Shown piece by piece: positions 8,521 through 34,277 of a DNA stretch of 47,312 nucleotides. Each line of letters begins with the position of its first letter. The first letter of the stretch is position 1. The notes below the pieces were generated by a model. The model saw only the letters and a list, made by a program, of their open reading frames with translations, was not told where the DNA came from and made no database searches. The translations under genes were made by a program, and so were the position numbers. The stretch spans positions 1-47,312 of the forward strand of contig JAOZVV010000097.1 in assembly GCA_025869365.1 (NCBI GenBank), written 5' to 3'. The stretch comes from Pseudonocardia sp. GTDB taxonomy: Bacteria > Actinomycetota > Actinomycetes > Mycobacteriales > Pseudonocardiaceae.

Positions 8521-8672
8521 CGATCCGGGACGGGCCGAACGACACCATGTTCCCCCTACGCGCGTCAACGAAACCTCCGGGCCGGATCCGGTCCGCACGG
8601 GCCGAGTCCCGGGGGGCCGGATCCGGACGGGCCGGGTTTCCCCGGACCGGATCCCTGCAGGCCGAATCCCCA
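8521..8672. repeat. degenerate tandem repeats between pepD and moaB2
   Basis: About four imperfect units of roughly 31-36 bases share a GCCGGATCC core followed by ACGGGCCGA/GGCCGAATCCC-like sequence (near 8521, 8580, 8615 and 8646). The cores contain the palindrome CCGGATCCGG, so each unit could form a small hairpin. The function is unknown; it lies in the 275-bp gap between two same-strand genes. Confidence 0.4.
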
Positions 8673-8683
8673 CAGGCGCCGTC

Positions 8684-10036: not shown

Positions 10037-10131
10037 GTACTCACCGTCTGTCCGGATCCGTGGGCCGGCGATCCCGGCCCGGAGGTGTCAGGAGGGTATG
10101 GCGAACCTCCCGGGCCCGCTCGGCCACCACC

Positions 10132-11460: not shown

Positions 11461-12882
11461 CTAGGCCGGTCGACGCCCGGGCAGCCGGAGGCTGAGCAGC
11501 GCCCCGCCCTCCGGCGCCCGCGCCGCCCATACGGCGCCGCCGTGGCGCACCGCGACCTGGCGGACGATCGCCAGCCCGAGCCCGGAGCCGGGCATCGTGC
11601 GCGACGTGTCCGCCCGGTAGAAGCGGTCGAACACCCGTGGCAGGTCCTCCTCCGCGATCCCCGGGCCGGAGTCCGCGACCTCCAGCACGACCGTCCACTC
11701 GTCGACCGGGACCAGGGTGACCCGTACCGTGCCGCCGGCCGGGCTCCACTTCACGCCGTTGTCCAGCAGGTTCAGCACCGCGCGTTCCAGCGCCGTCGAG
11801 TCCCCGATCAGGGTCCACGGCGTGAGGTGCACGTCGAAGGTGACGTCCGTCGTGGCCCGGCGCCGGGCGCGTTCGAGGGCGCGCTCCACGATGTCGGTGA
11901 GCTCGACGGGTTCGATCATCACCATCTGCGGGTCGTCCCGGGCGAGCTCGACGAGGTCCCCGACGAGCTGGGTCAGCTCCTCCACCTGCGCGCGGACGTC
12001 GTCGAGCATCTCCCGGCGGTCCTCGTCCGGCAGCTCGGGCGCACCCGGGACGGCCGCGGCGGCGAGCAGTTCCAGGTTGGTGCGCAGCGACGTCAGCGGG
12101 GTGCGGAGCTCGTGTCCGGCGTCCGCGACGAGGCGTCGCTGCTGTTCCTGGGACGACGCGAGCGCACCGAGCATCTCGTTGAAGCTGATGGTGAGCCGGG
12201 CGAGCTCGTCGGACCCGGAGACCCGGATCGGCCGCAGGTCCCCCGTGGACGCGACGCGCTCGGTGGCGGTGGTCAGGCGCTGGACCGGCCGCAGCCCGGC
12301 CCGGGCGACGGCGACCCCCAGCGCCGCGGCCAGCGCGATCCCGATGCCCCCGATGACGGGCAGGGCGATCGCCAGCTTGGCGAGGACCTGCTGGGTGGAC
12401 TCCAGCTTCTGCGCCATGACGAGCGCGCGCCCCGGCCCCGCGGCGACGGCGACGACCTCGTAGTCCCCCGCCGTGCGCACGGAGTACGGCGCGGTGCCCT
12501 GGGCGACGGCGAGCTCGACGGGGCTCAACGGCGGCGACGACGCGAGCGCCTCGGCGGACTGCGCGAGGCCGGACGCGTAGAGGAGCGCGATCCGGATGTC
12601 CCCCGCGCCGAGCACCTCCGGCGAGGTGGTGGCGAGCTGCTCGGGATCGGCGAGCTCGCTCTGCGCGGCGGCGGTCGCGCGTTGCAGCAGGTTCTCGTCC
12701 AGCGTCTCCAGGATGGACTGTCGGACGATCAGGAACACCGCGGCGGAGACCAGCACCACCACCCCCGCGGCGACGCCGGCGGCGAGGATGCCGATCCGGG
12801 CGCGCAGGCTGAAGCGGTCCAGGCGTGCGTACCGCCCGTGCAGCTGACCCGCCCCGCTGTCGGTGGACGGCGCAGCCGTCAC
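11461..12882 (-). CDS. mprB: MprB-type sensor histidine kinase
   Basis: Sensor kinase of 473 residues. It has transmembrane helix 1 (about 30-52), an extracytoplasmic sensor region (about 53-170), transmembrane helix 2 (about 172-195), a HAMP linker, and a HisKA domain with the phospho-accepting His in [13 protein letters not shown]. The ATPase domain has the N-box [11 protein letters not shown]1 [20 protein letters not shown] and G2 [12 protein letters not shown] 12882 overlaps the mprA stop by four bases, giving coupled translation. Synteny with pepD and moaB2 and the paired regulator identify it as MprB, which in mycobacteria senses envelope stress and activates sigma-factor and pepD expression. 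Some annotators would name it only a HAMP sensor kinase. Confidence 0.92.
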
Positions 12883-13580
12883 GGTGGGGACTCGCGCAGC
12901 ACGTACCCCACGCCGCGCACGGTGTGGATCAGCCGCGGTTCGCCCTCCGCCTCGGTCTTGCGGCGCAGGTAGCCGATGTAGACCTCCAGCGCGTTCCCCG
13001 TCGTCGGGAAGTCGTAGCCCCACACCTGCTCGAGGATCTGCGAGCGGCTCAGCACCCGTCGCGGGTTGGTGAGCAGCAGTTCGAGCAGGGAGAACTCGGT
13101 GCGGGTCAGGCTGATCCGGCGTTCCCCGCGGCGCACCTCGCGGGTGTCCGGGTCCAGGGAGAGGTCCCCGAACTCCAGCGGCTTGCTCAGCCCGGCCGCC
13201 GCGGCGGCGATGTCGTCCAGGGACCGGCGGCGCAGCAGCGCGCGGAGCCGGGCGAGCAGCTCCTCCAGGGCGAAGGGCTTGGGCAGGTAGTCGTCCGCGC
13301 CCGCGTCGAGCCCGGCGACGCGGTCCGACACGGCGTCCCGCGCGGTGAGCACGAGGATCGGCAGCTCGTCCCCGGCCGCGCGCATGCGCCGGCACACCTC
13401 GAGGCCGTCGAGGCGGGGCATCATCACGTCCAGCACCATCGCGTCCGGCCGCTGGGCGAGCACGGCGTCGAGCGCCTGCTGTCCGTCACTCGCCAGCTCC
13501 ACCTGATAGCCGTTGAACGCGAGCGAACGGCGCAGGGACTCCCGCACGGAGCGGTCGTCGTCCACGACCAGGATTCGCAT
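12879..13580 (-). CDS. mprA: MprA response regulator (OmpR family)
   Basis: Response regulator of 233 residues. The receiver domain has the acidic cluster VVDDD (7-9), phospho-acceptor Asp 51 in [11 protein letters not shown], the T/Lys switch residues in VLTARD and [15 protein letters not shown], and is followed by a winged-helix DNA-binding domain. That domain shows [22 protein letters not shown], the recognition segment [16 protein letters not shown] and the [10 protein letters not shown] wing. The receiver closely resembles mycobacterial MprA. ATG 13580 begins at MRILVV with GGAG 9 bases upstream; GTG 13595 would add five residues. It is the first gene of the mprAB unit and likely autoregulated, but I cannot point to an MprA box with confidence. 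Confidence 0.95.
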
Positions 13581-13627
13581 GGGGCCAGTCTCCACCGGCC
13601 TTCTGAGACGCGCCTGAGAACCCCCAC

Positions 13628-13717
13628 CCCGCGAGTCGCGGTATTTCCGTCACCGAGTCGCGGTATCTCCGCGCGGATCCGGCACGACTCGGTGACGGGA
13701 ATACCCCGACTCGCGGG
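13628..13717. repeat. long imperfect inverted repeat at dehydrogenase/mprA gap
   Basis: The 33-base arms 13628-13660 and 13685-13717 pair at 31 of 33 positions around a 24-base loop. The right arm ends immediately before the dehydrogenase stop codon, and the element ends 48 bases before mprA. The submotif GAGTCGCGGTAT occurs twice in the left half. It could terminate the dehydrogenase transcript or be a copy of a dispersed palindromic repeat. Confidence 0.7.
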
Positions 13718-14593
13718 TCACTCGTCGAAGCTGGCGTAGTAGACGGCCGCGATGTCGTCCTCGGCGTGGCCCTGGTCCGCGGCGCGCCGGAAGCGGTCGA
13801 GCGCGGCCGGGGCGAGGTCCAGCCGGACACCCGAGGCCGTGGCCGCCTCCGTGATCAGGTCGAGGTCCTTGGCGCCGTTGGCGACGCTGAAGCTCGCGCT
13901 CATGTCCCCGGTGAGGATCGCCCCGGCCTTCATCCGCAGGTAGGGCAGGTCCAGCGAGCCGCCCTCGATCGTGTCGAGGAACGCCTGCGGGTCCACGCCC
14001 AGCCCCTTGGCCAGGGCCAGCGTCTCCCCGGTCGCGGCCGTCACCGCGAGCACCCAGCTGTTGGCGACGAGCTTGAGCCTGCTCGCCGCCGCCTCCTCGG
14101 CCTTCTCCCCCACCCACACCGTCCTGCTGCCGACGGCCTCGAAGACGGGCGCCAGAACCGCCCGGGCCGAGACCGGCCCGGCACCGAGGATCTGCAGCTG
14201 ACCGTCCTCCGCGGGCTTCTTCGTGCCCACCACCGGCGCGTCGACCAGCACCAGCCGGTGTGTCCCCGCGAACGCGACGAGCGCGTCGAGCGGCGCGACG
14301 CCGACCGTCGTCATCTGTGCCCACACCTGGCCCGCGTGCAGGCCCTCCGCCGCGGCCCCCATGACGTCGAGCACGTGGGCGCCGTCCCCGAGCATGGTGA
14401 CGACGACGTCCGCGCCCCGGACCGCGTCCGCCGGATCCTCGGCCAGCCGCGCGCCCGCGTCGACGAGGGGTCGGGCCTTGTCCGCGGTGCGGTTCCAGAC
14501 GGTCAGCGGCAGACCCGCGGCCAGGATGTTGCGGGCCATCCCGGTTCCCATGATCCCGGTGCCCAGCAGCGCGACGCTCGGTGTGTCGGTCAT
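13718..14593 (-). CDS. NAD(P)-dependent beta-hydroxyacid dehydrogenase
   Basis: Enzyme of 291 residues in the 3-hydroxyisobutyrate dehydrogenase / glyoxylate reductase family. It has an N-terminal Rossmann domain with the dinucleotide motif VALLGTGIMGTGMARNI (8-24). The substrate-binding segment is LVDAPVVGTKKPAEDGQL, equivalent to DAPVSGG in the family. The catalytic Lys lies in the RLKLVANSWV helix, and a C-terminal helical domain with SVANGAKDLDLI follows. The T-K-K in the substrate loop replaces the commoner S-G-G, so the preferred substrate may differ from 3-hydroxyisobutyrate or tartronate semialdehyde. ATG 14593 gives the canonical N-terminus. The gene stands alone, ending in the long hairpin before mprA. 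Confidence 0.88.
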   Translation of the reverse strand: MTDTPSVALLGTGIMGTGMARNILAAGLPLTVWNRTADKARPLVDAGARLAEDPADAVRGADVVVTMLGDGAHVLDVMGAAAEGLHAGQVWAQMTTVGVAPLDALVAFAGTHRLVLVDAPVVGTKKPAEDGQLQILGAGPVSARAVLAPVFEAVGSRTVWVGEKAEEAAASRLKLVANSWVLAVTAATGETLALAKGLGVDPQAFLDTIEGGSLDLPYLRMKAGAILTGDMSASFSVANGAKDLDLITEAATASGVRLDLAPAALDRFRRAADQGHAEDDIAAVYYASFDE

Positions 14594-18970: not shown

Positions 18971-20093
18971 TCGCGCCTCCGGCCAGGGCCAGCGCGGCCG
19001 CGACGAACGCCGGTGCCGTGTAGCCGAACCCCGCCGCGATGACGACCCCGCCCAGCCAGGCCCCGATGGCGTTGGCCACGTTGAAGGCCATGTGCATCGC
19101 CCCGGAGGCCATGTGCGGAGCCTCGCCGGCGCCGTTGATGATCCGCAGCTGGATGCCGGGGATGGTGGCGAACACCGAGACGGCGAAGAGGAACAGCACG
19201 ATCGCCGCGGTGACCGGGTGGCTCAGCGCGGGCACCAGCAGCAGCGCCAGCACGACGTCGACGGCGAAGAACGACACCACCGCCCGCACCGGGCCCCGGT
19301 CCGCGAGCCGCGCCCCGACCAGGTTGCCGATCGTCATGCCCAGGCCGAACAGCGCCAGGATCGGGGTGACGCCCGCCGGTGAGTAGCCGGCGACGTCCGT
19401 CAGCATCGGCGCGATGTAGCTGTAGACGGAGAACAGCGCCGCCCCACCGACGATGCAGACCAGCAGCGTGATCCACACGGGGAACCGGCGGAGCGCCTTG
19501 AGCTCCTCGATCAGCCGCGGCGCGGGCATCCCGCGCACGACCGGCACCGCGAACGTCACCGCGACCGCCGCCAGCAGTGCGATCAGGCCCACGACGCCGA
19601 ACACCCAGCGCCACCCGACGGTCTGCCCGAGCAGCGTCGAGGCCGGGACCCCCACGATGTTCGCGATCGTGAGGCCGGAGAACATCATCGCCATCGCCCG
19701 CGCCCGTTTCGACGGGTCCACCAGCCGGCCGGCGACGATCGCGCCGATGCCGAAGAAGGCGCCGTGCGGCAGGCCCGCGAGGAACCGCGCCACCAGCATC
19801 CAGCCGTAGTCCGGTGCGATCGCGGAGAGCAGGTGCGCGGCACCGTAGACCGAGATCAGGACGACGAGAGCGGTCCGCCGGGGCAGCCTGGTCGCCGCCG
19901 CGATCAGCAGAGGCGCCCCGGCGACCACGCCCAGGGCGTACGCCGAGATCAGCGTGCCCGCGCTCGGGATGCTCACCTGCAGGTCGCTCGCCGCCTCCGG
20001 CAGCAGGCCCATGATCGCGAACTCACCGGTCCCGATCGCGAAGGCCCCGATGGCCAGCGCCAGCAATGCCCAGCGGACATGCGTCTTCGTCAT
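18894..20093 (-). CDS. MFS exporter (DHA1, AraJ/Cmx-like)
   Basis: Major-facilitator transporter of 399 residues with twelve predicted helices. The start region ALAIGAFAIGTGEFAIMGLLPEAA is typical of the AraJ/Cmx sugar- or drug-efflux group. The loop 2-3 motif is reduced to TRLPRRTALV. Helix 4 LVARFLAGLPHGAFFGIGAIVAGRLV and helix 5 MFSGLTIANIVGVPASTLLGQ, with the antiporter-type GxPxS pattern, are well preserved. ATG 20093 has a strong AAGGAGG site. No specific drug or sugar can be assigned. Its last 25 codons overlap the convergent SGNH gene. Confidence 0.92.
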   Translation of the reverse strand: MTKTHVRWALLALAIGAFAIGTGEFAIMGLLPEAASDLQVSIPSAGTLISAYALGVVAGAPLLIAAATRLPRRTALVVLISVYGAAHLLSAIAPDYGWMLVARFLAGLPHGAFFGIGAIVAGRLVDPSKRARAMAMMFSGLTIANIVGVPASTLLGQTVGWRWVFGVVGLIALLAAVAVTFAVPVVRGMPAPRLIEELKALRRFPVWITLLVCIVGGAALFSVYSYIAPMLTDVAGYSPAGVTPILALFGLGMTIGNLVGARLADRGPVRAVVSFFAVDVVLALLLVPALSHPVTAAIVLFLFAVSVFATIPGIQLRIINGAGEAPHMASGAMHMAFNVANAIGAWLGGVVIAAGFGYTAPAFVAAALALAGGAIMAFGGWWERRSPARPADEALVRAA

Positions 20094-20192
20094 CCGTAGA
20101 TCCCTCCTTCCGTCTTTATGATGCCGAATGTCCACGGTAGGCGCCGTGCAAGATCGACTCAGTGTCCGATCGGTCACCCCTACGATTCGGTG

Positions 20193-20642
20193 ATGCCGAA
20201 GCCACCACCGGCGGACTCGCCGTTCTGGAAGCTCTTCCACCTCGGGACCCGGGTGAACCTCGTGCTGTTCCGCGCGACGAAGGGGAAGGTCGGCGGCAGG
20301 ATGGGAACCTCCCCGATCCTGCTGCTGCACCACGTCGGCCGGCGGAGCGGCGAGGCACGCGTCAGCCCGCTGAACTATCTGGACGACGCCCCCGATCTCG
20401 TCGTGGTCGCGTCGAAGGGCGGGGTGGACGCCCACCCGGCCTGGTTCCACAACCTGATGGCGATGGACTCCACCGAGGTCGAGCTACCGGGCGGGGAACG
20501 CCGACGGGTGCGCCCGCGCGTCGCCGAGGGTGCGGAGCGGGACGCCCTCTGGCCGCGGCTCGTGGAGATGTACAAGCCGTACGCCGAGTACGCGACCTAC
20601 ACGGAGCGCAGGATCCCGGTGGTCGTCCTCGAACCCGCCTGA
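20193..20642 (+). CDS. Ddn-family F420-dependent nitroreductase/quinone reductase-like protein
   Basis: Protein of 149 residues of the deazaflavin-dependent nitroreductase family (DUF385), a split beta-barrel that uses F420H2. Characteristic segments are NLVLFRATKGKVGGRM, LLLHHVGRRSGEARVSPLNYL, VVASKGGVDAHPAWFHNLMA and the C-terminal YAEYATYTERRIPVVVLEPA. These are the binding regions for F420 and the reaction core in mycobacterial Ddn. ATG 20193 is chosen because it begins just before the conserved region; GTG 20190 precedes it directly. It is divergent from the MFS gene with a 99-bp gap. Actinobacteria have many paralogues, so the physiological substrate is open. Confidence 0.88.
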   Translation: MPKPPPADSPFWKLFHLGTRVNLVLFRATKGKVGGRMGTSPILLLHHVGRRSGEARVSPLNYLDDAPDLVVVASKGGVDAHPAWFHNLMAMDSTEVELPGGERRRVRPRVAEGAERDALWPRLVEMYKPYAEYATYTERRIPVVVLEPA

Positions 20643-20719
20643 GGGCGGCGGGCCGGCCTGCTCTTATGTGGCCGGCCTCACGCGCCCTACCATCGCCTGC
20701 CCGGACATCGGAGGACGCG

Positions 20720-21112
20720 ATGAGCGAGCAGAACGTCAAGGTCGTCCAGGCCGTGTACGACAGCTTCGGTTCCGGCGACGTCGACGCCGTGTTCGCCGTG
20801 ATGACGCCCGACATCGAGTGGGACGAGTCCGAGGGAATGCCCTACGGCGGCGTCTACCACGGCCGCGAGGCCATCGTGGGCAATGTGTTCGGCCCGATCC
20901 TGTCCGACGTCGAGGGCTTCACCGCCACGCCCGACGAGATCCTGCCGCTGGACGACACCCGCGTCGTCGCGCTCGGGCGCCATGGTGGACAGGGCGCGAA
21001 CGGCCCGGTGCGCGCCAGGTTCGTCCATATCTGGACGGTGACCGACGGCCGGGTGGCGCGCTACCAGCAGCTGGCGGACACCCACACCTTCCGGGCCGCC
21101 GTCGGCAAGTAG
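20720..21112 (+). CDS. SnoaL/NTF2-like protein
   Basis: Protein of 130 residues with the cone-shaped NTF2/SnoaL fold: NVKVVQAVYDSFGSGDVDAVFAVM, then TPDIEWDESEGMPYGGVYHGREAIV, and C-terminal strands ARFVHIWTVTDGRVARYQQLADT. The WD/E and HGR elements place it in the SnoaL_3 ketosteroid-isomerase-like group. Such proteins are isomerases or binding proteins, and most have no known substrate. ATG 20720 follows GGAGG by six bases. It lies 77 bases upstream of tRNA-Arg. Confidence 0.88.
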   Translation: MSEQNVKVVQAVYDSFGSGDVDAVFAVMTPDIEWDESEGMPYGGVYHGREAIVGNVFGPILSDVEGFTATPDEILPLDDTRVVALGRHGGQGANGPVRARFVHIWTVTDGRVARYQQLADTHTFRAAVGK

Positions 21113-21188
21113 GCCGCAGATCCCCTGGTCATCGAGGACGAGGGCGGGCAGGCGGGGTCGGAAGGAAGCCACGGTAGTCTGCACGCAC

Positions 21189-21261
21189 GCCCTCGTAGCT
21201 CAGGGGATAGAGCACCGCTCTCCTAAAGCGGGTGCCGCAGGTTCGAATCCTGCCGGGGGCA
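21189..21261 (+). tRNA. tRNA-Arg (anticodon CCT)
   Basis: A complete 73-base cloverleaf. The acceptor GCCCTCG (21189-21195) pairs with CGGGGGC (21254-21260), with A at 21261. The D-arm is GCTC/GAGC, and the anticodon arm CCGCT/AGCGG has loop CTCCTAA, so the anticodon is CCT at 21222-21224. The T-arm is GCAGG-TTCGAAT-CCTGC. CCA is not encoded. An IS110-type element begins 13 bases downstream. Confidence 0.97.
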
Positions 21262-21289
21262 CACAGGTCATCCCTGAAGGAGCGGGGCC

Positions 21290-21720
21290 GGTCAACCCCC
21301 TGTTCTTGTTGTTGATGTTCTTCGCCGCGGCTGTTGAGCGCGCCGAAGTGGCGGCGGGGTCAAGGAGCGCCCGGAGGGCGCCCGCGTAGCGGCCGTAGGT
21401 CCTTGATGCCGTCGCGGCAGCGGCGTAAGGCTGTTCAGCTGGCGAAGATCGGGTGAGAGGTTGTCGTCGCTCCCTGCTCGCAGGGCGTGTGGGGTTCGGT
21501 TGTGCTGCGCCTGAAGCCGTGGTCCCGGCTCGATGTGGACGAAGCCCCCGTGGGGTCGTCGGTCATCCCTTCGCCGCGCCGACCTGCGGGTCGGGCGGCA
21601 TGGTGCGCTGCGACGAGAGTGCTGGGTGGCGGGTGGGATCAATCAGAAGGGGCGATCACGCCGAGCCGGCTCGGGGATCATGACCTGTGCGATCCGCGCC
21701 CACCACGATCTCGGGCCCGC
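21290..21720 (-). ncRNA. non-coding 3' flank of IS; candidate guide (seek/bridge) RNA region
   Basis: These 431 bases hold no convincing gene. They are rich in inverted repeats, for example TCAAGGA (21360-21366) against TCCTTGA (21399-21405) enclosing a GCGCCCGGAGGGCGC hairpin. IS110-family elements encode a structured RNA in their non-coding end that chooses the target, and in the IS1111 group this end is downstream of the transposase. The RNA itself, its ends and its strand are inferred, not seen. Confidence 0.3.
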
Positions 21721-22755
21721 TCACGCCGCATCGGCGGTGGGAGACAGACAGCGGATGCGGTGATCACGTATCCCGTAGAACACCAGCGTGAGCAGGTCTC
21801 GGGCCGCGGCGACGACCCCGATGTTGTGGCCCCGACGGTTCCCGACACGGTCACGGCGCTGTCCCAGTCTCGTGTGCGCGGGAACGCGTTGGACGGCCTC
21901 GACCGCCGCCCACCGGACCAGTCGGGAACCCTGTTTGGTGATCCGTCCCCGGTGGACGGAGGTGTCGGACTCGCGGTGTGTCGGAGTGAGCCCGGCCCAG
22001 GACGCCAGCTGCTGTGGGCGAGCGAAACGGGTGACATCGCCGATCTCGGCGACGAACACCGCGCCCAGCAGCGGCCCGACACCGGGGATGGTCTGGATGG
22101 CGATATAGCCGGGGTCGGTGCGCAACCGTCCGGCGACCAGGCGGGCGTAGGTGTCGATCTCGAAGTCCAGGGCGCCGATCAGCCGCAGCAACGAGTCCAC
22201 CCGCGCCCGCGACTCGACCGCGAGCCGGGTCGCGGCGAGCAGCTTCTGCCCGCCCGAGCTGAACAGGTCACTCATCGGGACCTGCACCCCGGCGCCGGCG
22301 AGGACGGCGTGGACCTGGCACTTCAGGTTGGACCGGATCCCGACGAGCTTTGCCCGGTGGCGCACCCAGCCGCGTAGCTCCCGCGTCGCGGGCGGAGCGA
22401 TCCACGCCTCCGGCAGACGACCCATCCGCAACAGATCAGCCAGATCAGCGGCGTCACGCTGGTCGTTCTTCACCCGCCGCAGAGAGAACATCTTCACCCC
22501 CAACGGATGCGCCAGATGCACGTTCGCGCCCAGCCCGGCGAGGGTGTCCGCGGCCCAGTACCAGCCGTAGGTGGCTTCCAGGACCACCTCCGGGCACTCC
22601 CCGGCCCGGGCCATCACCTGCGCCAGATAGTCCGGGTCGTTGGCGATCCGCACCGTCTCCAGATACTCCCCGGACTCGGTCATCCGCACCAACACCGACC
22701 GGCGCCGATGCAGATCCATCCCGACGATCTGCCGTCCCTCGTATGCTTCGCTCAC
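21721..22755 (-). CDS. IS110-family transposase
   Basis: Transposase of 344 residues. The N-terminal RuvC-like DEDD domain begins GMDLHRRRSVLVRM (first Asp about 14) and continues with VVLEATYGWYWAADTL (Glu) and VKNDQRDAADLADLLRMG (Asp pair). The C-terminal Tnp_20 domain contains QTIPGVGPLLGAVFVAEIGD, RFARPQQLASWAGLTP and the catalytic-Ser segment ITKQGSRLVRWAAVEAVQ. All key residues are present and the frame is open, so the element may be active. GTG 22755 has GGGGAGG upstream. Confidence 0.95.
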   Translation of the reverse strand: MSEAYEGRQIVGMDLHRRRSVLVRMTESGEYLETVRIANDPDYLAQVMARAGECPEVVLEATYGWYWAADTLAGLGANVHLAHPLGVKMFSLRRVKNDQRDAADLADLLRMGRLPEAWIAPPATRELRGWVRHRAKLVGIRSNLKCQVHAVLAGAGVQVPMSDLFSSGGQKLLAATRLAVESRARVDSLLRLIGALDFEIDTYARLVAGRLRTDPGYIAIQTIPGVGPLLGAVFVAEIGDVTRFARPQQLASWAGLTPTHRESDTSVHRGRITKQGSRLVRWAAVEAVQRVPAHTRLGQRRDRVGNRRGHNIGVVAAARDLLTLVFYGIRDHRIRCLSPTADAA

Positions 22756-22841
22756 AGGGGCCTCCCCAACTCGTTGGCGTGAAGCACCTCGAGCATGAGC
22801 CGAGGGTCACGAGGAGCGGGAGGCCCCGCTCCTTCATCGCA

Positions 22842-24218
22842 TCAGGGGAGGCGGGGGTACTGCAGATGGAAGTCGGTCACTCGCTGGAACGCGATGGCGG
22901 CCTGTGCGAGCACATGTTCCTGCCACGGCCCCGCGACGAGCTGCAGCCCGATGGGCAACCCTCCGGCGCCGAAGCCGCAGGGTATCGACGCGGCCGGGAC
23001 CCGAGCGGCGCTCCACGGGTAGGCGTACCGGGTCAAGGCATGGGTGGTGGTGATCGTGTCGGAGGGGTTGATCTCCGGTGCCTGTGTGGGAGTCGCCGGG
23101 ACCGCGATCAGGTCGACGGACTCGAAACATTCGAGCACCTCCGCCCGCCATGCCTGGAGTCCGCCGACGGCTCGCGCGACATCGACGCCTGACAGGTCGG
23201 CGCCGAGTTCGAGCCGGTCCCGGATATCGGGGTCGAACAGCTCCGGCGAGCGTGCCAGCCGCTCCTCGTGCAGTGCCAGCGCCTCCGCCAGGAGGAGGGT
23301 GTTGCAGGAGGCGCGCGCCTGGTCCGCCCCCCGGAGGGGGACACGAACGATCTCCGCGCCGAGATCCCGCAGCTGATCGACAGCGGTGGTCACAGCGTGA
23401 TGGATCTCACTGTCCGGAGAATGCCAGAACTCGTCGTCGGGGACTCCGATGCGAAGTCCCTCCAGAGTGGACTTGGGTGGCGTTCGACCGAAGTCCGCCG
23501 GTGGGGGTTGCGCCCACGGGTCTCGCGGGTCGTATCCGCGGATCACGGTGAACAGCGCCCAGACATCCTCGAAAAAGCGAGCCATCGGGCCTACCGTGTC
23601 GATCGATGGACCGAGCGGGAAGACTCCGCGGCTGCTGACGGCGCCGTGCGTCGGTCGGAGACCGCACACGCCGGTCAGTGCGGCTGGGATCCGCACCGAA
23701 CCGCCGGTGTCGGTGCCGAGCGCACCGACGGTCATGTTCGCCGCCACCGCGACCCCGGAACCGCCGCTCGAGCCTCCGGGCACGCGGTCGACATCCCAAG
23801 GGTTACGACACGCACCGAAATGATGGTTCTTCGTGGTCGCGCCGTAGGCGAACTCGTGTAGCTGTGACTTGCCGACGATGATGGCCCCCGCCTCTCGGAG
23901 ACGGGCGACAACGACGGCATCGCGGGCAGCGCGGTTGTCGAGCAGGAACGGCGAACCCGCAGTCGTGATGTAGCCGCCGATGTCGATGTTGTCCTTGACG
24001 GCGACGGTCATCCCGGCGAGGGGACTGACCAGGTGGCCGTCCGGGTCTGCTCGCAATCGGTGCGCATCGCGCCACGCGAGGTCGTCGGTGATGCTGACGA
24101 ATGCATTGAGAACCGGGTCCAGACGCGCGATCTTGTCCAGCGAATCCTGCACTGAGACGGCGACGTCGGCCTTCCGATGCGGCATCGTCACCCACCCGTG
24201 CGTCGACAATTCAGACAT
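22842..24218 (-). CDS. amidase-signature family hydrolase
   Basis: Enzyme of 458 residues that hydrolyses amide bonds with a Ser-cisSer-Lys triad. The Lys lies in AGMTVAVKDNIDIGGY, the glycine/serine core is VPGGSSGGSGVAVAANM, and the nucleophile region is GTDTGGSVRIPAALTGVCGLRPTHG. Full family length and the usual C-terminus show that it is not truncated, although the IS repeat ends only five bases after the stop. ATG 24218 has AAGGA six bases upstream. Codons are less GC-rich than in the neighbours, and with the adjacent IS and empty region this suggests recent acquisition. The substrate cannot be predicted; GatA is unlikely because no gatB/gatC is nearby. Confidence 0.9.
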   Translation of the reverse strand: MSELSTHGWVTMPHRKADVAVSVQDSLDKIARLDPVLNAFVSITDDLAWRDAHRLRADPDGHLVSPLAGMTVAVKDNIDIGGYITTAGSPFLLDNRAARDAVVVARLREAGAIIVGKSQLHEFAYGATTKNHHFGACRNPWDVDRVPGGSSGGSGVAVAANMTVGALGTDTGGSVRIPAALTGVCGLRPTHGAVSSRGVFPLGPSIDTVGPMARFFEDVWALFTVIRGYDPRDPWAQPPPADFGRTPPKSTLEGLRIGVPDDEFWHSPDSEIHHAVTTAVDQLRDLGAEIVRVPLRGADQARASCNTLLLAEALALHEERLARSPELFDPDIRDRLELGADLSGVDVARAVGGLQAWRAEVLECFESVDLIAVPATPTQAPEINPSDTITTTHALTRYAYPWSAARVPAASIPCGFGAGGLPIGLQLVAGPWQEHVLAQAAIAFQRVTDFHLQYPRLP

Positions 24219-27728: not shown

Positions 27729-28352
27729 TCAGACCGGGACGCCGGCGAACCGGCGCCCCTCGGCGAAGAACGTCGCGACCGCTCCGGCATCGGGCAGCTC
27801 GACCGCGGCGCGGCTCGCACCGAACGGGGCGTTCCAGAAGGTCCCGTGCCGGGGTGTCGCCGGGCCGACGTAGGCGTAGGGCCGGGGGACGTGGGCGTCC
27901 CCCGGTGACACCCCGTAGGTCACCTCGTCCAGCGTGACGGCCAGATCGAAGTGCTCCGGCCAGATCACCGGCTCGGCGTCCGGCGCGAGGATCCGCAGCG
28001 CCTCGTCGCCCCGGCCGAACCAGCCGGCCACGACCTCGGCGACCGCGGGGTCCACCACCAGCGGCTCGTCCAGGTGCACGCCGGAACCGTCGGGGTAGAG
28101 CCCGGCCGGACCGCCCGGGTCGACACCCGCGGCGACGGCGAGGTCCCGGCACGTATCGGCGATCGGCGCGCGCCCGCCGTCCCACACCAGCTCGGTGCCC
28201 TCGACCCGCAGGGCGAGGGCGACCCCGCCGAATCCACCGGGCGTGACGCGCAGCCTGATGGTGCCGGCGGCCCGGTGCTGCGGGCCGGCGATGACCAGCT
28301 CGGCGACGGCGTGCAGGGCCCGCCGGGTGCCGGCCGTCGACTTCTCGTCCAT
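27729..28352 (-). CDS. conserved hypothetical protein
   Basis: Soluble protein of 207 residues, without signal peptide or transmembrane segments. Recognisable features are HAVAELVIAGPQHRAAGTIRLRV and LEGVEGTEL-like beta strands. A segment VIWPEHFDLAVTLDEVTYGVSPGD is followed by PRPYAYVGPATPRHGTFWN. These segments recur in an actinobacterial family of unknown function. ATG 28352 follows an AGGAGGA site on the minus strand. It is divergent from the Rieske/glutamate-synthase gene with an 81-bp gap, in which GTAACG and CGTTAC half-sites occur near either end. Confidence 0.7.
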   Translation of the reverse strand: MDEKSTAGTRRALHAVAELVIAGPQHRAAGTIRLRVTPGGFGGVALALRVEGTELVWDGGRAPIADTCRDLAVAAGVDPGGPAGLYPDGSGVHLDEPLVVDPAVAEVVAGWFGRGDEALRILAPDAEPVIWPEHFDLAVTLDEVTYGVSPGDAHVPRPYAYVGPATPRHGTFWNAPFGASRAAVELPDAGAVATFFAEGRRFAGVPV

Positions 28353-28433
28353 CTCGTCCTCCTCGCGTAACGTCCGGGCGGGTCGAGGTCACTGTTTCCC
28401 GCAGTACGTGTCGGACGACGCCGGGAGCGTTAC

Positions 28434-30050
28434 ATGGACCTCAGTACCTTGATGCCGATCGCCCAGCTCGGTGAGCTCGCCGAGGACGTCCCCCACCACG
28501 CCGCGGTCGACGGCATCGACCTCGTGCTCGTGCGGCGGGGCACGCAGGTGCACGTCTTCGAGGGCCGCTGCCCGCACCGTGGCGCGCTGCTCGCCGACGG
28601 CCGGGTCGAGGGCGCCAACCTCATCTGCGGCGTGCACGGCTGGGACTACCGTCTCGACACCGGTGTCTCGGCCTACAACCCCGCGGAACGGATCTACAAG
28701 TTCGGCTGCCACGTGCGTGACGGCGAGGTGCTCGTCGACAAGGCGGACCTGGTCGAGTACCGCAGCATGCGGCCGGAACGCGCCGTGGTCTCCACCTACG
28801 ACCGGCTCTTCGACGACCCGCACCAGGACAGCGCGGAGGAGCCGTTCGTCTCCGAGATCCACGCCCTGGCGCGCAGCGGGCTCGCCGGTGCGCACGGCAA
28901 GGTCGCGGCGATGGGCGTGCCCCGGGCCGAGCTCCCGACCTGGGACGACCTGCAGGTGCTGACCGCGCAGCTCCACCGTTTCCCCCGTCTCGACGACGAC
29001 GCCGTCGACACGTCGGTGACCATCGGGCCGGCGGCCGCGAAGCCGCTGTGCCTGGACATCCCCGTCTTCGTGTCCGACATGAGCTTCGGCGCGCTGTCGG
29101 CGGAGGCCAAGACCGCGCTCGGCCGCGGCGCCGAGGGAGCGGGCACCGCGATCTGCTCGGGTGAGGGCGGCATGCTGCCCGAGGAGAAGGCGGAGTGCTC
29201 CCGCTATCTCTACGAGCTCGCCTCCGGCCGGTTCGGCTGGGACGAGATGCACCTCGACTCCGTGCAGGCGCTGCACCTCAAGCTCGGGCAGGGAGCGAAG
29301 ACGGGCACCGGAGGGCATCTTCCCGGTACCAAGGTCACCGGCCGGATCGCCGAGGTCCGCGGCCTGCCCGAGGGCGAGTCGGCCGTCTCCCCGGCGCGGT
29401 TCGTCGACTGGGTCATGCTGCTCGACGCGAGGTCGCTGGTGGACCGGATCCGCGAGCGGTCCGGCGGCATCCCGGTCGGGGTGAAGATGTCCGCCCAGCA
29501 CATCGAGGCCGATCTCGACGCCGCGCTCGACCTGGGTGTCGACTACGTGATCCTCGACGGCCGCGGCGGCGGGACCGGAGCCGCGCCGACGATCTTCCGC
29601 GACACGATCAGCGTGCCGACGATGGCCGCGTTGGCCCGCGCGCGCCGGCACCTCGATCTCGCCGGTGCGCGGGACGTGACCCTGGTGGCGACGGGTGGTT
29701 TCCGCCGGGCCCAGGACATGGTCAAGGCGCTCGCGCTGGGCGCGGACGCGATCGCGGTCTCCAACGTCGCCCTGCAGGCGATCGGCTGCGTCGGGATGCG
29801 GGCCTGCCACACCGACAACTGCCCGATGGGCATCGCGACGCAGAAGCCGCACCTGCGGGCGCGGCTCCCGGTGCAACGGGCCGCCGAGCAGCTCACCCGC
29901 TACCTCGGGGCGATCACCGAGCTGATGGTCGTGCTCGCCCGCGCGTGCGGGCACGACTCGCTGTCGCACTTCACACCGAGAGACCTGACGAGCTGGAAGC
30001 GCGACGTCGCCGACCTGGTCGGCGTCAGCTACGCGGGGGTGGGCGGATGA
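28434..30050 (+). CDS. Rieske domain fused to FMN-binding glutamate-synthase domain
   Basis: Protein of 538 residues. Residues about 5-105 are a Rieske [2Fe-2S] domain with the ligands CPH (C46, H48) and CGVH (C65, H68). Residues about 150-530 are a GltS-type TIM barrel that in glutamate synthase carries FMN: PVFVSDMSFGALSAEA, SGEGGMLPEE, KLGQGAKTGTGGHLPG and LDGRGGGTGAAP. It includes the [3Fe-4S] cysteines in CVGMRACHTDNC, spaced as in GltB. No glutaminase domain and no small subunit are present, so it is not a normal glutamate synthase. The Rieske domain probably passes electrons to FMN. ATG 28434 is supported by the conserved start. Its stop overlaps the next gene's ATG. Confidence 0.9.
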   Translation: MDLSTLMPIAQLGELAEDVPHHAAVDGIDLVLVRRGTQVHVFEGRCPHRGALLADGRVEGANLICGVHGWDYRLDTGVSAYNPAERIYKFGCHVRDGEVLVDKADLVEYRSMRPERAVVSTYDRLFDDPHQDSAEEPFVSEIHALARSGLAGAHGKVAAMGVPRAELPTWDDLQVLTAQLHRFPRLDDDAVDTSVTIGPAAAKPLCLDIPVFVSDMSFGALSAEAKTALGRGAEGAGTAICSGEGGMLPEEKAECSRYLYELASGRFGWDEMHLDSVQALHLKLGQGAKTGTGGHLPGTKVTGRIAEVRGLPEGESAVSPARFVDWVMLLDARSLVDRIRERSGGIPVGVKMSAQHIEADLDAALDLGVDYVILDGRGGGTGAAPTIFRDTISVPTMAALARARRHLDLAGARDVTLVATGGFRRAQDMVKALALGADAIAVSNVALQAIGCVGMRACHTDNCPMGIATQKPHLRARLPVQRAAEQLTRYLGAITELMVVLARACGHDSLSHFTPRDLTSWKRDVADLVGVSYAGVGG

Positions 30051-31853
30051 GCACGATGCCGGACAACACGAGGCCGGTGAACACGACGTGGCACCGGATC
30101 GACGGGGTCCCCGACGAGGGCCGGGTCCGGACCGCGATCGTCGACGGCCGCAGCGTCGCGGTCTCGCGCTGCGGCGGGCGGGTCAGCGCGCTCGACAACC
30201 ACTGCCCGCACCAGGGCGGCCCGCTCGGCGAGGGCTCGATCGAGAACGGGTTGCTGCGCTGCCCGTGGCACGGCTACGACTACGACCCGACGACGGGGAA
30301 GCCGCCGGAGGGCTTCTCCGACGCCCCGCACGCCTTCGCCGTCGAGGAGCGCGCCGACGGCACCTACGTCGAGCTTCCGGACGTGGTGGAGCGCCCGCGC
30401 AGCGTCTCGGACGTGCTGGTGGAGACGCTGGTGGCCTGGGGCGTCGACACCGTCTTCGGCATGGTCGGACACTCCAACCTCGGGTTCGCCGAAGCGCTGC
30501 GCGCGGTCGAGGAGCGCGGCGAGCTGCGCTACATCGGCATCCGCCACGAGGGTGCGGCCGCGTTCGCCGCGTCCGCCTACGGGAAGCTGACGGGCCGCCC
30601 CGCGGCCTGCTTCGCGATCGCCGGGCCGGGCTCGACCAACCTGCTGACCGGCCTGTACGACGCGCGGCTCGACGGCGCCCCGGTGCTCGCGATCTCCGGC
30701 CAGGTGCCGTCCAAGGTGCGGGGGCGCGGCGCGTTCCAGGACGTCGACCTGTCGGCCGTGTTCGGTGACGTCGCCCTCTCGACCGTGACCGTGACGGCCG
30801 GTTCCGACCACGCCGAGCTGGCGGCGACGGCGGTGAAACACGCGCTCGACGGCCGCGGGGTCGCGCATCTCGTCCTGCCCGACGAGGTCCAGGACCTGCC
30901 GAGCGATGCTCCGGCGATGCCGCCGCGCGGGCGTCGCGCCGACCGTGGGGTCGCGCTGTCTCCGGAGTCGCTGGCCGCGGCGACCAGCAGGATCCGCACC
31001 GCCACCCGGCCGGTGATCATCGTGGGCCAGGGTGCGCGGGTGGCCACGGCCGAGGTGCGTGAGCTCGCCGAACGGCTCGGTGCGCCCGTGCTCACGACGT
31101 TCCGCGCCAAGGGCCTGCTGCCCGACACCCATCCGCTCGGGGCGGGGGTGCTCGGACGTCGGCCTCCTCGGCGACGCCGCCGTCACCCTGCGGGCCCTGC
31201 TCGCCGGGCTCGACGAGGACCCGGCCGGGATCGCCGCGGTCGACCAGCACGGCGACGTCGCCGCCCGATGGGCGATCTGGCGGGCGGAGAAGCGGCGGCG
31301 CGCGATCGACGACCGCGGGCGCGGCGTCTCCAGCGCCGCCGTGTTCGCGGCCCTGTCCGCGCACTGCCCCGCGGACGCGACGATCGCCGTCGACGTCGGC
31401 AACCACGCCTACTCCTTCGGCCGCTACTTCGAGAGCGCGGGCCAACCCGTCCTGATGTCCGGCTACCTGGGCTCCATCGGCTTCGGCTATCCCGCGGCGC
31501 TGGGCGCGTGGGCCGCCGACCCGGCCCGGCCCGTGGTCGCCGTCACCGGCGACGGCGGGTTCGGCCAGTACCTCGCGGAGCTGACGACGGCGGTCAGGTA
31601 CGGGATCGCGGTCAAGCACGTCCTGCTCGACAACGGCGCCCTCGGCAAGATCAGCAAGGAGCAGCAGGCGGGCGGCTACCCCGTCTGGCAGACCTCGCTC
31701 GTCAACCCGGACTTCGCCGGCTACGCGGAGCTCTGCGGGGCGACGGGCATCCCGGTCCACCGCGCCGAGGACCTCGACGAGGGGATGAAGGCGCTCTTCG
31801 CCGCGGACGGACCCGCCCTCCTGCACGTCCACGCCGACGCCGAGCTGGTGTGA
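30047..31853 (+). pseudogene. Rieske domain fused to thiamine-diphosphate enzyme, internal deletion/frameshift
   Basis: ATG 30047 overlaps the previous stop as ATGA. Residues about 12-110 are a Rieske domain with CPH (C53, H55) and CPWH (C72, H75). An acetolactate-synthase-like ThDP domain follows, with the catalytic Glu in GIRHEGAAAFAASAYGKL and FAIAGPGSTNLLTGLYDARLDG. The frame runs to about 31155 (LPDTHPLGAGVLG) and then jumps by one frame to DVGLLGDAAVTLRALL. From there it continues to 31853 with the ThDP site VAVTGDGGFGQYLAEL and HVLLDNGALGKI. About 60 residues of the middle domain that family members have between these points are missing. It is therefore a deletion with frameshift, either real or an assembly fault. 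The intact form would presumably be a carboligase or decarboxylase. Confidence 0.85.
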
Positions 31854-31854
31854 C

Positions 31855-33030
31855 ATGTCCGCGGGCCTGGTGATCGTGCTGGCGGTGGCGGCGGGGGTGC
31901 CGCTGCTGCTCGGCCTGGTTCCCGCACTGCGGCTGCCGGGGGCGCTGCTGGAGATCATCGCGGGGGTGCTGATCGGGCCGTCCGTGCTCGGCTGGGTCAC
32001 CCCCGACGAGACGATCCGCGCGCTCTCCCTGCTGGGGCTGTCGTTCCTGCTGTTCCTCGCCGGATCGGAGGTCGACCTGCGCCGGTTCCGCGGGACCCTG
32101 GGACGGCGGGTCGCGCTGTCCGTGGCGTTGTCGCTCGGCGGTGCCGGGGTGGTCGTCGCGGTGCTGGTCGCGCTGGGCGTCAGCGGCGCGGCCCTGATCG
32201 GGGTGGCGCTGCTGGCGACGTCGCTCGGGCTGGTGGTACCGGTGCTGTTCGACGCGGGTGTGCTCGCCCGCCCGGTGGGCCGGCTGGCGGTCGCCGGGGC
32301 GTCGGCCGGTGAGGTGGTGGCGGTCGTCCTGCTGTCCGTCGGGCTCTCGGGGACGGACACCCCGCTGGCCGGCCGGCTGCTCCTCCTGGCCTTGCTGCTC
32401 GGCGCGCTGGGCGTGATCGCGCTGGTGGTGCTGGGCGCCGAGCATTCGGGCCGGTTGACCGGGGTGATCGCGAGGCTCGCCGACACGAGCGCGCAGATCC
32501 GCATCCGGCTGACGGTGCTCCTCGTGGCCGGGCTCGCGCTGGCCGCCGAGGCGCTGGGGTTCGAGGCCATCCTGGGCGCCTTCCTCGCCGGATTGCTCCT
32601 GCGCGCTCTCGATCCCGATCCCCAGGCCACGCACCCGCTCTACCCGGTGAAACTCGAGGCCGTCGGCTACGGGCTGCTGGTCCCGATCTTCTTCGTCACC
32701 AGCGGGCTGACGCTCGACCTGTCCGGCCTCCTCGAGCATCCGGCCGCCCTCGCCACCGTGCCGGGGTTCCTCCTCGCGCTGCTGCTGGTCCGTGCGGTTC
32801 CGGCGCTGGCGTTCCGCGGCGAGCTGTCCCGGCGCGAGCTGGTCGCCGTCGGCCTGCTGCAGGCGACGTCGTTGCCGTTCCTGCTGGCGGCGATCGAGAT
32901 CGGCGAGCGGATGGCGATCCTGGCCCCGGCGGTGGGCGCGGGACTGGTCGCCGCAGGGGTGATCTCGGTGCTGGTGTTCCCGGCGGTCGCGCTGGCGCTG
33001 CTGCCGCGACGGACGGCCCTTCGGGTGTGA
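31855..33030 (+). CDS. cation:proton antiporter (CPA2/Kef-like membrane domain)
   Basis: Membrane protein of 391 residues with about 12-13 hydrophobic helices and no soluble TrkA-N domain. Family features are LEIIAGVLIGPSVLGWV, LLGLSFLLFLAGSEVDLRRFRG, LLATSLGLVVPVLFDAG, GASAGEVVAVVLL (with the acidic residue where CPA2 proteins bind ions) and GFEAILGAFLAGLLLRALD. The start ATG 31855 lies one base after the previous stop, so translation is coupled. The genetic link with the two Rieske proteins suggests that ion or pH control supports their activity, but this is inference. Na+ versus K+ cannot be told. Confidence 0.87.
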   Translation: MSAGLVIVLAVAAGVPLLLGLVPALRLPGALLEIIAGVLIGPSVLGWVTPDETIRALSLLGLSFLLFLAGSEVDLRRFRGTLGRRVALSVALSLGGAGVVVAVLVALGVSGAALIGVALLATSLGLVVPVLFDAGVLARPVGRLAVAGASAGEVVAVVLLSVGLSGTDTPLAGRLLLLALLLGALGVIALVVLGAEHSGRLTGVIARLADTSAQIRIRLTVLLVAGLALAAEALGFEAILGAFLAGLLLRALDPDPQATHPLYPVKLEAVGYGLLVPIFFVTSGLTLDLSGLLEHPAALATVPGFLLALLLVRAVPALAFRGELSRRELVAVGLLQATSLPFLLAAIEIGERMAILAPAVGAGLVAAGVISVLVFPAVALALLPRRTALRV

Positions 33031-33164
33031 CGCCCACGCCACGCGCCCTCGCCTGCATCGAGCTGGTCGAGCTGCTCACCGACCACCGCGAGGACACGCT
33101 CCCACCCGAGGAGGTGGCCGCGGTCGACGCGCTGCTCGCGGCACTCCGGGACCGGCTCGGCTGA
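33027..33164 (+). CDS. small protein, 45 residues, end of the Rieske/ThDP/antiporter unit
   Basis: GTG 33027 overlaps the antiporter stop as GTGA and the frame continues to TGA at 33162. The product is a 45-residue, acidic, mostly helical peptide: the segment ALACIELVELLTDHREDTLP is followed by an amphipathic helix EEVAAVDALLAALRDRL. There are no membrane segments. The coupled start and the strong GC bias at the third codon position suggest it is translated. The function is unknown; it could regulate the antiporter or the enzymes. Confidence 0.55.
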   Translation: MTPTPRALACIELVELLTDHREDTLPPEEVAAVDALLAALRDRLG

Positions 33165-33188
33165 CGCCGCGGCGAGTACCGCGACCCC

Positions 33189-33200
33189 GTTACGGGTAAC
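33189..33200. promoter_or_regulatory. dyad upstream of desaturase
   Basis: Perfect inverted repeat GTTAC-GG-GTAAC in the 162-bp gap before the desaturase gene, 127 bases upstream of its ATG. The size fits a regulator half-site pair, but no regulator is identified. Confidence 0.35.
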
Positions 33201-33326: not shown

Positions 33327-34277
33327 ATGACTGTCAGCCCCACCACCGCAGGCCGCACCGCGGACGCCCCGGCCAAACCGGTGTTCGCCACCCCACGTCC
33401 ACAGGGCCAGGCCTGGCTGGTCTACCTCTTCACCCTCATCCCGATGCTCGCGCTCGTCGCGGCCGTACCGCTGGCCTGGGGGTGGGGCCTGTCCTGGCTC
33501 GACGTCGGGCTCGCGATCGGCTTCTACTTCCTGTCCGGGTTCGGGGTGACCGTCGGCTATCACCGCTACTTCACCCACCGCGCCTTCAAGGCGCGCAAGG
33601 GGTTGCGCAACGGCCTGGCCATCGCGGGCAGCCTCGCCATGCAGGGTGACGTCATCACCTGGGTCTCCGATCATCGGCGCCACCACGCCTTCACCGACAA
33701 GGAGGGCGACCCGCACTCACCGTGGCTCCACGGCACCACGCCGGTCGCCCTGGCCAAGGGCTTCTTCCACGCCCACCTCGGCTGGCTCTTCGGCCGTGAC
33801 CGCACCAACGCCGAACGCTTCGCCCCCGACCTGCTCGCCGACCGCGACATCACCCGGATCAGCGCGCTGTTCCCGCTGTGGACGGTGCTCAGCCTTCTCG
33901 CCCCGGCCCTGATCGGTGGCCTGGCCACCCAGACCTGGTGGGGCGCGCTGACCGCGTTCTTCTGGGCCGGCCTCGTCCGCGTCGCGCTCCTGCACCACGT
34001 GACCTGGTCCATCAACTCCATCTGCCACATGATCGGCGACCGCCCCTGGGACGCCCCCGGGAAGGCGACCAACGTCTGGCCCCTGGCGGTCCTGTCCATG
34101 GGCGAGTCCTGGCACAACCTGCACCACGCCGACCCCACCTGCGCCCGTCACGGCATCGGCCGCGGCCAGCTCGACATGACGGCCCGGTTCATCTGGGTCC
34201 TCGAGAAGCTCGGCTGGGCCCATTCCGTCCGCTGGCCCACCACCCGTCGCCTCGCCCGCCTCACGGCCCGCACCTGA
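33327..34277 (+). CDS. acyl-CoA/acyl-lipid delta-9-type desaturase
   Basis: Membrane di-iron desaturase of 316 residues that puts a double bond in fatty-acyl chains and so controls membrane fluidity. The three histidine boxes are complete: HRYFTH, HRRHH and HNLHH. An additional His region RVALLHHVTWSINSICHMIG, found in stearoyl-CoA-type desaturases, is also present. Hydrophobic pairs lie at about 30-72 and 185-225. ATG 33327 has AGGAG upstream. M. tuberculosis DesA3 is the best-known relative and receives electrons from an oxidoreductase; none is adjacent here. It may be an independent gene downstream of the Rieske unit. Confidence 0.93.
   Translation: MTVSPTTAGRTADAPAKPVFATPRPQGQAWLVYLFTLIPMLALVAAVPLAWGWGLSWLDVGLAIGFYFLSGFGVTVGYHRYFTHRAFKARKGLRNGLAIAGSLAMQGDVITWVSDHRRHHAFTDKEGDPHSPWLHGTTPVALAKGFFHAHLGWLFGRDRTNAERFAPDLLADRDITRISALFPLWTVLSLLAPALIGGLATQTWWGALTAFFWAGLVRVALLHHVTWSINSICHMIGDRPWDAPGKATNVWPLAVLSMGESWHNLHHADPTCARHGIGRGQLDMTARFIWVLEKLGWAHSVRWPTTRRLARLTART

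Follow-up and report, generated by a model that had tools for sequence, protein, structure and literature searches.

A damaged Pseudonocardia locus for two Rieske-fused enzymes, a putative copy of a widespread and patchy redox-stress operon

Here, we describe a locus of Pseudonocardia sp. in which Rieske [2Fe-2S] domains are fused to two different enzymes. It lies on a stretch of 47,312 nucleotides (contig JAOZVV010000097.1 of assembly GCA_025869365.1), which is called the window in the following. The first gene encodes Rieske-GltS, a flavin mononucleotide (FMN) protein of the glutamate synthase type, and the second encodes Rieske-ThDP, a thiamine diphosphate (ThDP) enzyme; an antiporter gene and a short open reading frame (ORF) follow. 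We hold with moderate confidence that this locus represents a redox-stress operon of wide but patchy occurrence, and that the copy seen here is degraded or partly mis-assembled. The core of the operon would be Rieske-GltS and Rieske-ThDP, often accompanied by a DUF5996-like protein and a CPA-type antiporter. The pair and its clusters are conserved, and DUF5996-like proteins, antiporters and extracytoplasmic function (ECF) sigma factors recur as partners in part of the loci. In the genome at hand, as assembled, the sigma gene is gone, the anti-sigma gene is truncated and the Rieske-ThDP gene is frameshifted. With both the ThDP gene and the regulator damaged, the window represents the system poorly.

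The initial annotation of the window, made from the letters alone, had staked its idea of a system on the two Rieske fusions being neighbors in other genomes, and this is what we have found. We searched 394 genomes of the class, including the own one, at E<=1e-120; several belong to one genus and are not independent. The GltS query matched 10 genomes, the ThDP query 9 and both queries 7, and the two genes are adjacent by coordinates in all seven. If the genes were distributed independently about 0.2 genomes with both would be expected, a figure that treats the genomes as independent, which they are not. Two of the seven, the window's genome and G188, have a damaged or partial ThDP gene, and one GltS-positive genome (G276) has a form with CDGSH motifs. 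Within the genus the distribution is patchy, with the GltS gene in 3 of 36 genomes including the own one (E 1e-100).

For a wider view we used the best-scoring 80 of 590 confirmed GltS loci, a set that is biased to close relatives and includes several short contigs. Counts come from six-frame hits of hidden Markov models (HMMs), because ORF calling breaks down at very high GC content (L009, L010, L090). The neighbor HMMs were built from neighbor clusters of the same 80 loci, so cluster members match by construction, and the contrast in neighbor distances is one of loci with and without ThDP only. In 25 of the 80 loci, from many phyla, Rieske-GltS has a ThDP hit no more than 6 kb away; in 24 of these (not in L086) the two share a strand. 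One of the 25, L049, has a relative without the Rieske domain; at L049:2527-9197, Rieske-GltS is followed by a second GltS-type paralog, the Rieske-less ThDP enzyme and an aldehyde dehydrogenase cluster gene. Both genes are found on three haloarchaeal plasmid records, at distances of about 1.4, 4 and 17 kb. Some GltS and ThDP hits come from contigs of identical length (for example 436554, 926598 and 609729), which may be the same contigs.

The Rieske-GltS gene of the window (28434-30050, plus strand, ATG start, 538 residues) is intact. Pfam places a Rieske domain at residues 7-85 (E 4.4e-15) and a Glu_synthase domain at residues 196-507 (E 3.2e-90), which is overlapped by FMN_dh and IMPDH matches; neither a glutaminase (GATase) nor a C-terminal GXGXG domain is among the Pfam hits. 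The Rieske ligands C46/H48/C65/H68 and the cysteines of the [3Fe-4S] motif, C452/C458/C463, are present. The initial annotation had seen a Rieske-GltS/FMN protein without glutaminase as the first of four coupled genes, and this assignment holds, as do its gene order, coordinates and junctions (ATGA at 30047; stop 31851-31853, one base and ATG at 31855; GTGA at 33027). Its observation is real in part and thus partly confirmed, with two of the four genes misread.

Loss of the Rieske ligands had likewise been named as a ground against the system, and the ligands are kept. We counted them in HMM hits above 450 bits, with the ThDP spacer widened after 13 of 39 sequences had failed a narrower pattern. 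The pattern C-x-H...C-x2-H occurs in 93 of 96 GltS hits. It is lacking in L049, whose hit is a different paralog, and in L121:8680-10230 and L132 near 8530-10063, where tandem CDGSH motifs before the GltS domain take the place that Rieske has in the window protein. Among ThDP hits the ligands are found in 37 of 39; in L037 they belong to the ORF just before the ThDP ORF, and the copy in L125 is truncated. The cysteine pattern of the [3Fe-4S] cluster is shared by 96 of 96 GltS hits. Compared with the glutamate synthase of the same genome, the pocket of Rieske-GltS reads GAKTGTGGH for GAKPGEGGQ and SPARF for SPPPHH. Lys289 is kept and His295 replaces Gln, with GGH in 90 of 96 GltS hits; we take Lys289, His295 and SPARF to be positions of the 2-oxoglutarate pocket, as substrate-binding residues. 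Since the pocket differs from that of the own glutamate synthase, Rieske-GltS is a GltS-type FMN protein and probably not a glutamate synthase.

The second gene had been read as one intact coupled gene ending at 31853, and this has to be corrected. The ThDP gene is frameshifted in this assembly. Its 5' part (30047-31158, plus strand) encodes the Rieske domain, TPP_enzyme_N and the start of TPP_enzyme_M by Pfam, and its 3' part (31159-31853, plus strand) encodes TPP_enzyme_C (E 2.6e-34) in another frame (ORF 31032-31853). In the DNA alignment with L089, L090 and L010, 158 bp are absent at 31158-31159, within the central ThDP domain; the exact position is uncertain by a few bases. The frame that starts at 30047 exits the ThDP family at about 31158, enters Arg/Pro-rich sequence and continues to 31873. 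A search of the own genome with Rieske-ThDP gave the two half-matches and then only proteins of at most 40% identity, and a second intact copy was not found elsewhere in the assembly; an intact Rieske-ThDP in this genome as assembled is rejected. A second partial copy is seen at L125:10219-11277, which matches the query only from residue 288 on.

We give nearly even weight to the possibility that the frameshift is an assembly or sequencing error and that the organism has an intact gene. The assembly is a draft of 200 contigs with 90% completeness, and the ratios of nonsynonymous to synonymous substitution (dN/dS) of the two ThDP halves (0.207 for the 5' and 0.159 for the 3' half) are no higher than that of the intact Rieske-GltS (0.225 against L090). 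Both halves are thus as constrained as the intact gene, which means that the lesion is either recent or an assembly error. On the other hand, loss of 158 bp is atypical of base-calling slips, and the sigma gene is also gone and the anti-sigma protein lacks its zinc site, which fits real decay of the locus.

This regulatory damage becomes visible at the 3' end of the gene cluster. The ORF of 45 codons at 33027-33164 (plus strand) had been taken for a gene of its own; the coordinates are right, and they delimit the remains of an anti-sigma factor of the zf-HC2 (ZAS) type, in which the HxxxCxxC site is missing. It shares 67% identity over 36 residues with L090:13311-13418 and 55% over 31 residues with L089, and these counterparts match zf-HC2 with E 2.3e-12 and 1.6e-9, respectively. 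The window ORF itself matches only profile positions 1-26 of 35, with E 0.033, under the Pfam cut-off. By its homology to L090 and L089 it is an N-terminal remnant, and a new small protein is rejected. In L089 (P. autotrophica NRRL B-16064, the same record as L009) and L090, both of the same genus, the order is antiporter, ECF sigma factor (Sigma70 regions 2 and 4) and zf-HC2 anti-sigma factor. In the window the antiporter runs directly into the GTGA start of the anti-sigma gene, with no sigma gene between them, and the HxxxCxxC stretch has been lost; no close ECF ortholog was found elsewhere in the own genome, where the best match has 38% identity.

ECF sigma genes are found beside the system in actinobacteria and some alphaproteobacteria, followed by a zinc-finger anti-sigma gene in the Pseudonocardia relatives and in one other actinobacterial genus. 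By Pfam they stand beside the system in five of the 80 loci (L009, L030 and the alphaproteobacterial L013, L021 and L041), and HMM or tblastn adds L090, L124, L125, L130, L128 and L129, with the sigma factor of L124 found by HMM only. The zf-HC2 anti-sigma factor was identified in L089, L090 and L124 by Pfam and in L125 and L130 by tblastn. ECF genes lie near 5 of the 25 loci with ThDP and near none of the 55 without it.

The initial annotation had the order of its four genes right and missed, besides the link to an ECF/anti-sigma pair, a divergent gene just outside the span that it described. This gene (27729-28352, minus strand) encodes a protein of 207 residues with the motifs WPEHFD, YGVSPGD and PYAYV, which appears to be distantly related to DUF5996. 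It has no Pfam hit at E<=1e-3, does not reach the gathering score of DUF5996 (PF19459) and does not match an HMM of DUF5996 proper. The tie runs only through an HMM of intermediates: the protein matches the HMM of 11 Rieske-GltS neighbors from other phyla (E 4.7e-7, 29.3 bits), and one intermediate, L014, passes the DUF5996 cut-off (30.4 versus 25). The gene has the same divergent position in L089, L090 and L010. Of the 80 loci, 20 have a DUF5996-like gene at most 6 kb from Rieske-GltS; 16 of these are training members of the HMM, and the other four are L009, L010, L053 and L083, with L009 and L010 scoring only 29-31 bits. In L083 (Plesiocystis; 11627-14449), which is outside the training set, the DUF5996-like, Rieske and ThDP parts form a single frame of 941 residues, and the DUF5996-like region scores 245 bits by the neighbor HMM and only E 0.22 by Pfam. 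At L037:11620-14468 a DUF5996-Rieske ORF is followed by a ThDP ORF. A sequence search of solved structures gave no credible match for the DUF5996-like proteins (best E 0.063). In a Pfam census of 127 of the 159 listed neighbor proteins (114 families, the 25 most frequent listed), DUF5996 is the top family with 10.

Between the DUF5996-like gene and Rieske-GltS lies an intergenic region of 81 bp (28353-28433) with an inverted pair of GTAACG hexamers at 28367-28372 (plus strand) and 28428-28433 (minus strand). We propose the pair as candidate -35 elements of two divergent ECF-type promoters. The hexamer, read on either strand, occurs three times in 47 kb and two of the copies are in these 81 bp; the inverted pair is also present in L089, L090 and L010, and L124, L125 and L130 have a single GTAACG some 300 bp before the GltS domain. 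A scan for GTAAC-N17-CAC gave one match in the window, in an unrelated place, with 0.22 expected; the spacing of this pattern is one base too short for the site at 28433, and the count carries little weight. In a looser promoter scan the 28433 site is the sole match in the window. For a promoter signal, the rarity and pairing of GTAACG alone stands. The third copy, at 33188-33193, follows closely on the anti-sigma remnant, with a gene for a fatty-acid desaturase (33327-34277) downstream of it. On the other side of the operon, a lower-G+C stretch of the window (20001-24000) holds an IS110-family transposase gene (21721-22755, minus strand).

The antiporter gene (31855-33030, plus strand) encodes a CPA2-like cation/proton antiporter of 391 residues (Pfam Na_H_Exchanger E 2.9e-49, 168.3 bits with a cut-off of 26.2), and its TIGR00932 score of 117 bits is below the cut-off of 238.3. 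Orthologs stand immediately 3' of Rieske-ThDP in L089 and L090. The initial annotation had counted the antiporter as a member of the system; antiporters recur near 14 of the 80 GltS loci and are present in that part of the loci only; of these 14, 11 belong to the 25 loci that have ThDP and 3 to the 55 that lack it. The type varies, with CPA1 in 13 of these loci and CPA2 in one (L009). A CPA1-like gene is found directly 3' of Rieske-ThDP in the haloarchaeal L117 (Halorarius), and the mycobacterial plasmid L120 has a CPA2 gene about 3 kb from Rieske-ThDP. The antiporter frame of this plasmid (L120:7280-8899, minus strand) has an N-terminal piece that resembles sigma-70 region 4 (E 0.0028, under the cut-off), and an ECF fragment adjoins the frame. 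In favor of a redox setting, we find differing subsets of genes for MerA-like reductase, peroxiredoxin, pirin, DsrE and GST-N around the haloarchaeal plasmid copies. EgtB is near five and EgtD near four of the 80 loci; close to Rieske-GltS, EgtD is seen in L050, L065, L088 and L080, and EgtB in L050, L065 and L088.

How such an operon might work can be sketched from the domains. Thiol or disulfide stress would release the sigma factor from its zinc anti-sigma factor, by analogy with RsrA, and the freed sigma factor would fire the divergent GTAACG promoters. The closest solved structures to an intact ThDP relative are E. coli PoxB, followed by acetolactate synthase and pyruvate oxidases. A PoxB-like ThDP enzyme would oxidatively decarboxylate a pyruvate-like 2-oxo acid and might discharge the electrons singly via its own Rieske [2Fe-2S] cluster. 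The FMN/[3Fe-4S] enzyme of the GltS type would load or unload electrons via its own Rieske domain, which occupies the place of the tandem CDGSH motifs in other family members. The antiporter could swap K+ or Na+ for H+ and shift the cytoplasmic pH, as Kef does against electrophiles.

A number of observations weigh against a redox-stress operon of this kind. Each enzyme is also found without the other: in the class survey GltS occurs without ThDP in G156, G341 and the CDGSH genome G276, and ThDP without GltS in G142 and G443; plasmids with GltS lack ThDP in 5 of 8 cases, and those with ThDP lack GltS in 2 of 5. In 28 of the 80 GltS loci, some of them short, none of the searched partners lies within 6 kb. 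The ThDP match is below the cut-off in all NCBIfam models among the matches listed (25 of 57 matched); the relative in L034 reaches 396.6 of 742 bits for PRK08611. An ECF gene was detected by HMM in just 5 of the 80 loci. The sigma factor of L030 (Mycobacterium sp.) is SigH_actino-like with 238 bits, under the equivalog cut-off of 251.55, and the anti-sigma factor of L090 scores 26.1 bits against RsrA, under the equivalog cut-off of 62.5. Of 11 loci checked, 4 (L126, L127, L012 and L016) have no upstream GTAACG, and the hexamer is not rare in L089, with 6 copies in 17 kb. Induction of the operon by redox stress is a prediction. The idea of the initial annotation that the genes act as one redox system is partly supported: a linked Rieske pair, with an antiporter in part of the loci, is found far beyond actinobacteria, while in this genome the micro-ORF proved to be a relic and the ThDP gene to be broken.

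A more far-reaching proposal, which we put forward tentatively, is that of an undescribed redox-defense system, horizontally spread in bacteria and haloarchaea. In it, stress-induced [2Fe-2S]-armed enzymes (Rieske-ThDP, Rieske- or CDGSH-GltS and a Rieske-heme membrane protein) and the DUF5996-like protein would drain electrons of 2-oxo acids to repair or detoxify an oxidized or electrophilic metabolite; the antiporter would adjust the pH, and the system would have a zinc anti-sigma switch of its own.

A dedicated chain of two enzymes, in which the ThDP enzyme would hand its electrons directly to the FMN/[3Fe-4S] enzyme through both Rieske modules, had in essence been suggested by the initial annotation and is somewhat doubtful. 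The pair is adjacent wherever both genes occur in the sampled class and the Rieske ligands are intact in both proteins. However, 18 of the 80 loci have a third Rieske fusion nearby, a membrane protein that resembles ferric reductases, and in six of these it shares the cluster with ThDP (within 6 kb; 6 of the 25 ThDP loci), so a shared carrier or a membrane route would be equally possible. Direct transfer is therefore only possible, as either enzyme can be found by itself and some clusters include a third Rieske protein. In the examples compared, the Rieske part of the membrane fusion has 37-49% identity to that of the ThDP enzyme. The fusion belongs to a three-gene module near the pair (L011:13614-15824, L017:6272-8476, L047:13631-15874 and L034:7612-9750) that consists of a small membrane protein, the ferric-reductase-like protein with its C-terminal Rieske domain and a Cys-rich protein, which in L011 reads GEICDGKCYAGAMRPG...HKACADLC. 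A member of the membrane-module family in L056 has no Pfam hit.

Both enzyme families act on 2-oxo or imino acids. A plain catabolic or nitrogen operon, in which the GltS-type enzyme makes or breaks an amino or imino acid, the ThDP enzyme takes the 2-oxo acid and no stress system is involved, with the sigma factor and the antiporter as mere local regulators or neighbors, would agree with this substrate range. Some sources label the GltS protein as methylamine-glutamate N-methyltransferase subunit C, a Zn-alcohol dehydrogenase gene is found 3' in L030 and an aldehyde dehydrogenase cluster occurs in 6 of 81 loci. We nevertheless regard such an operon as unlikely. The 25 most frequent neighbor families include no recurring amine or amino-acid pathway and are led by DUF5996, the other recurring partners are the antiporter, the membrane Rieske proteins, ECF sigma factors and a few EgtB and EgtD, and the GltS pocket, with His295 for Gln and SPARF for SPPPHH, is unlike that of a true glutamate synthase. 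A module that forms glutamate in osmotic or pH stress, with Rieske-fed synthesis balanced by K+/H+ antiport, would suit the [3Fe-4S] pattern of all 96 GltS hits, the pocket lysine kept in the aligned sequences and an alphaproteobacterial antiporter (L019) that resembles K+/H+ antiporters below their cut-offs, and is quite improbable given the missing glutaminase and GXGXG domains of the window protein, the pocket differences and the lack of any ammonium or glutamine family among the 25 listed.

We thus return to a redox-stress operon as the preferred reading. A pair that is kept across phyla and on archaeal plasmids, with intact ligands, with fusions and in places with a sigma factor of the stress type, points strongly to a redox pathway that has not been described. 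DUF5996-like proteins gain a concrete functional neighborhood, and stand-alone GltS domains with [2Fe-2S] heads gain a testable partner. At the locus itself two readings are corrected, that of a broken gene once taken as intact and that of an anti-sigma relic once taken as a mini-gene. Literature searches on Rieske fusions with these partners gave no paper on this gene set among the matches listed, with subscription papers mostly outside their scope, and the Pfam name DUF5996 was found in no paper of the literature searched.

Parts of the proposed system have counterparts in known ones. A fusion of CDGSH to GltS is a described architecture, termed 'type 5 CISD' in the available portions of PMC3174974 and PMC5859297. 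As far as the accessible text of PMC3174974 goes, it has, like the protein described here, an N-terminal [2Fe-2S] module on a stand-alone FMN glutamate-synthase domain. However, type 5 CISD has CDGSH, while the protein of the window has Rieske and is clustered with Rieske-ThDP, a DUF5996-like gene and an antiporter. With the large chain of glutamate synthase (PDB 7mfm, 1ea0) Rieske-GltS has in common the FMN/[3Fe-4S] domain, the cysteines C-x5-C-x4-C and the pocket lysine, but the window protein is without glutaminase or GXGXG by Pfam, has His295 for Gln and carries a Rieske domain in front. PoxB and pyruvate oxidase (PDB 3ey9, 1pow) have the same three-domain ThDP layout as the intact relative along its length, whereas Rieske-ThDP has an N-terminal Rieske domain, stays under the listed NCBIfam cut-offs and is broken in the window. 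RsrA is a zinc anti-sigma factor that responds to disulfide stress, according to excerpts of PMC4960319. As in SigR-RsrA and SigH-RshA (excerpts of PMC4960319 and PMC3489674), an ECF sigma factor adjoins a zf-HC2 anti-sigma factor in the Pseudonocardia relatives, and the mycobacterial sigma factor is SigH_actino-like; the differences are that the scores of the relatives are under the equivalog cut-offs, that their regulators are tied to this operon and that the sigma factor is lost in the window. Allicin-resistance islands are the subject of PMC7119367, judged by its available portion. The Kef K+/H+ efflux systems, as presented in the accessible part of PMC10224563, share with the locus a cation/proton antiporter in a proposed stress setting; unlike Kef, the window antiporter reaches only 40.5 of 752 bits with the KefC model, and other copies of the operon have a CPA1-like protein instead.

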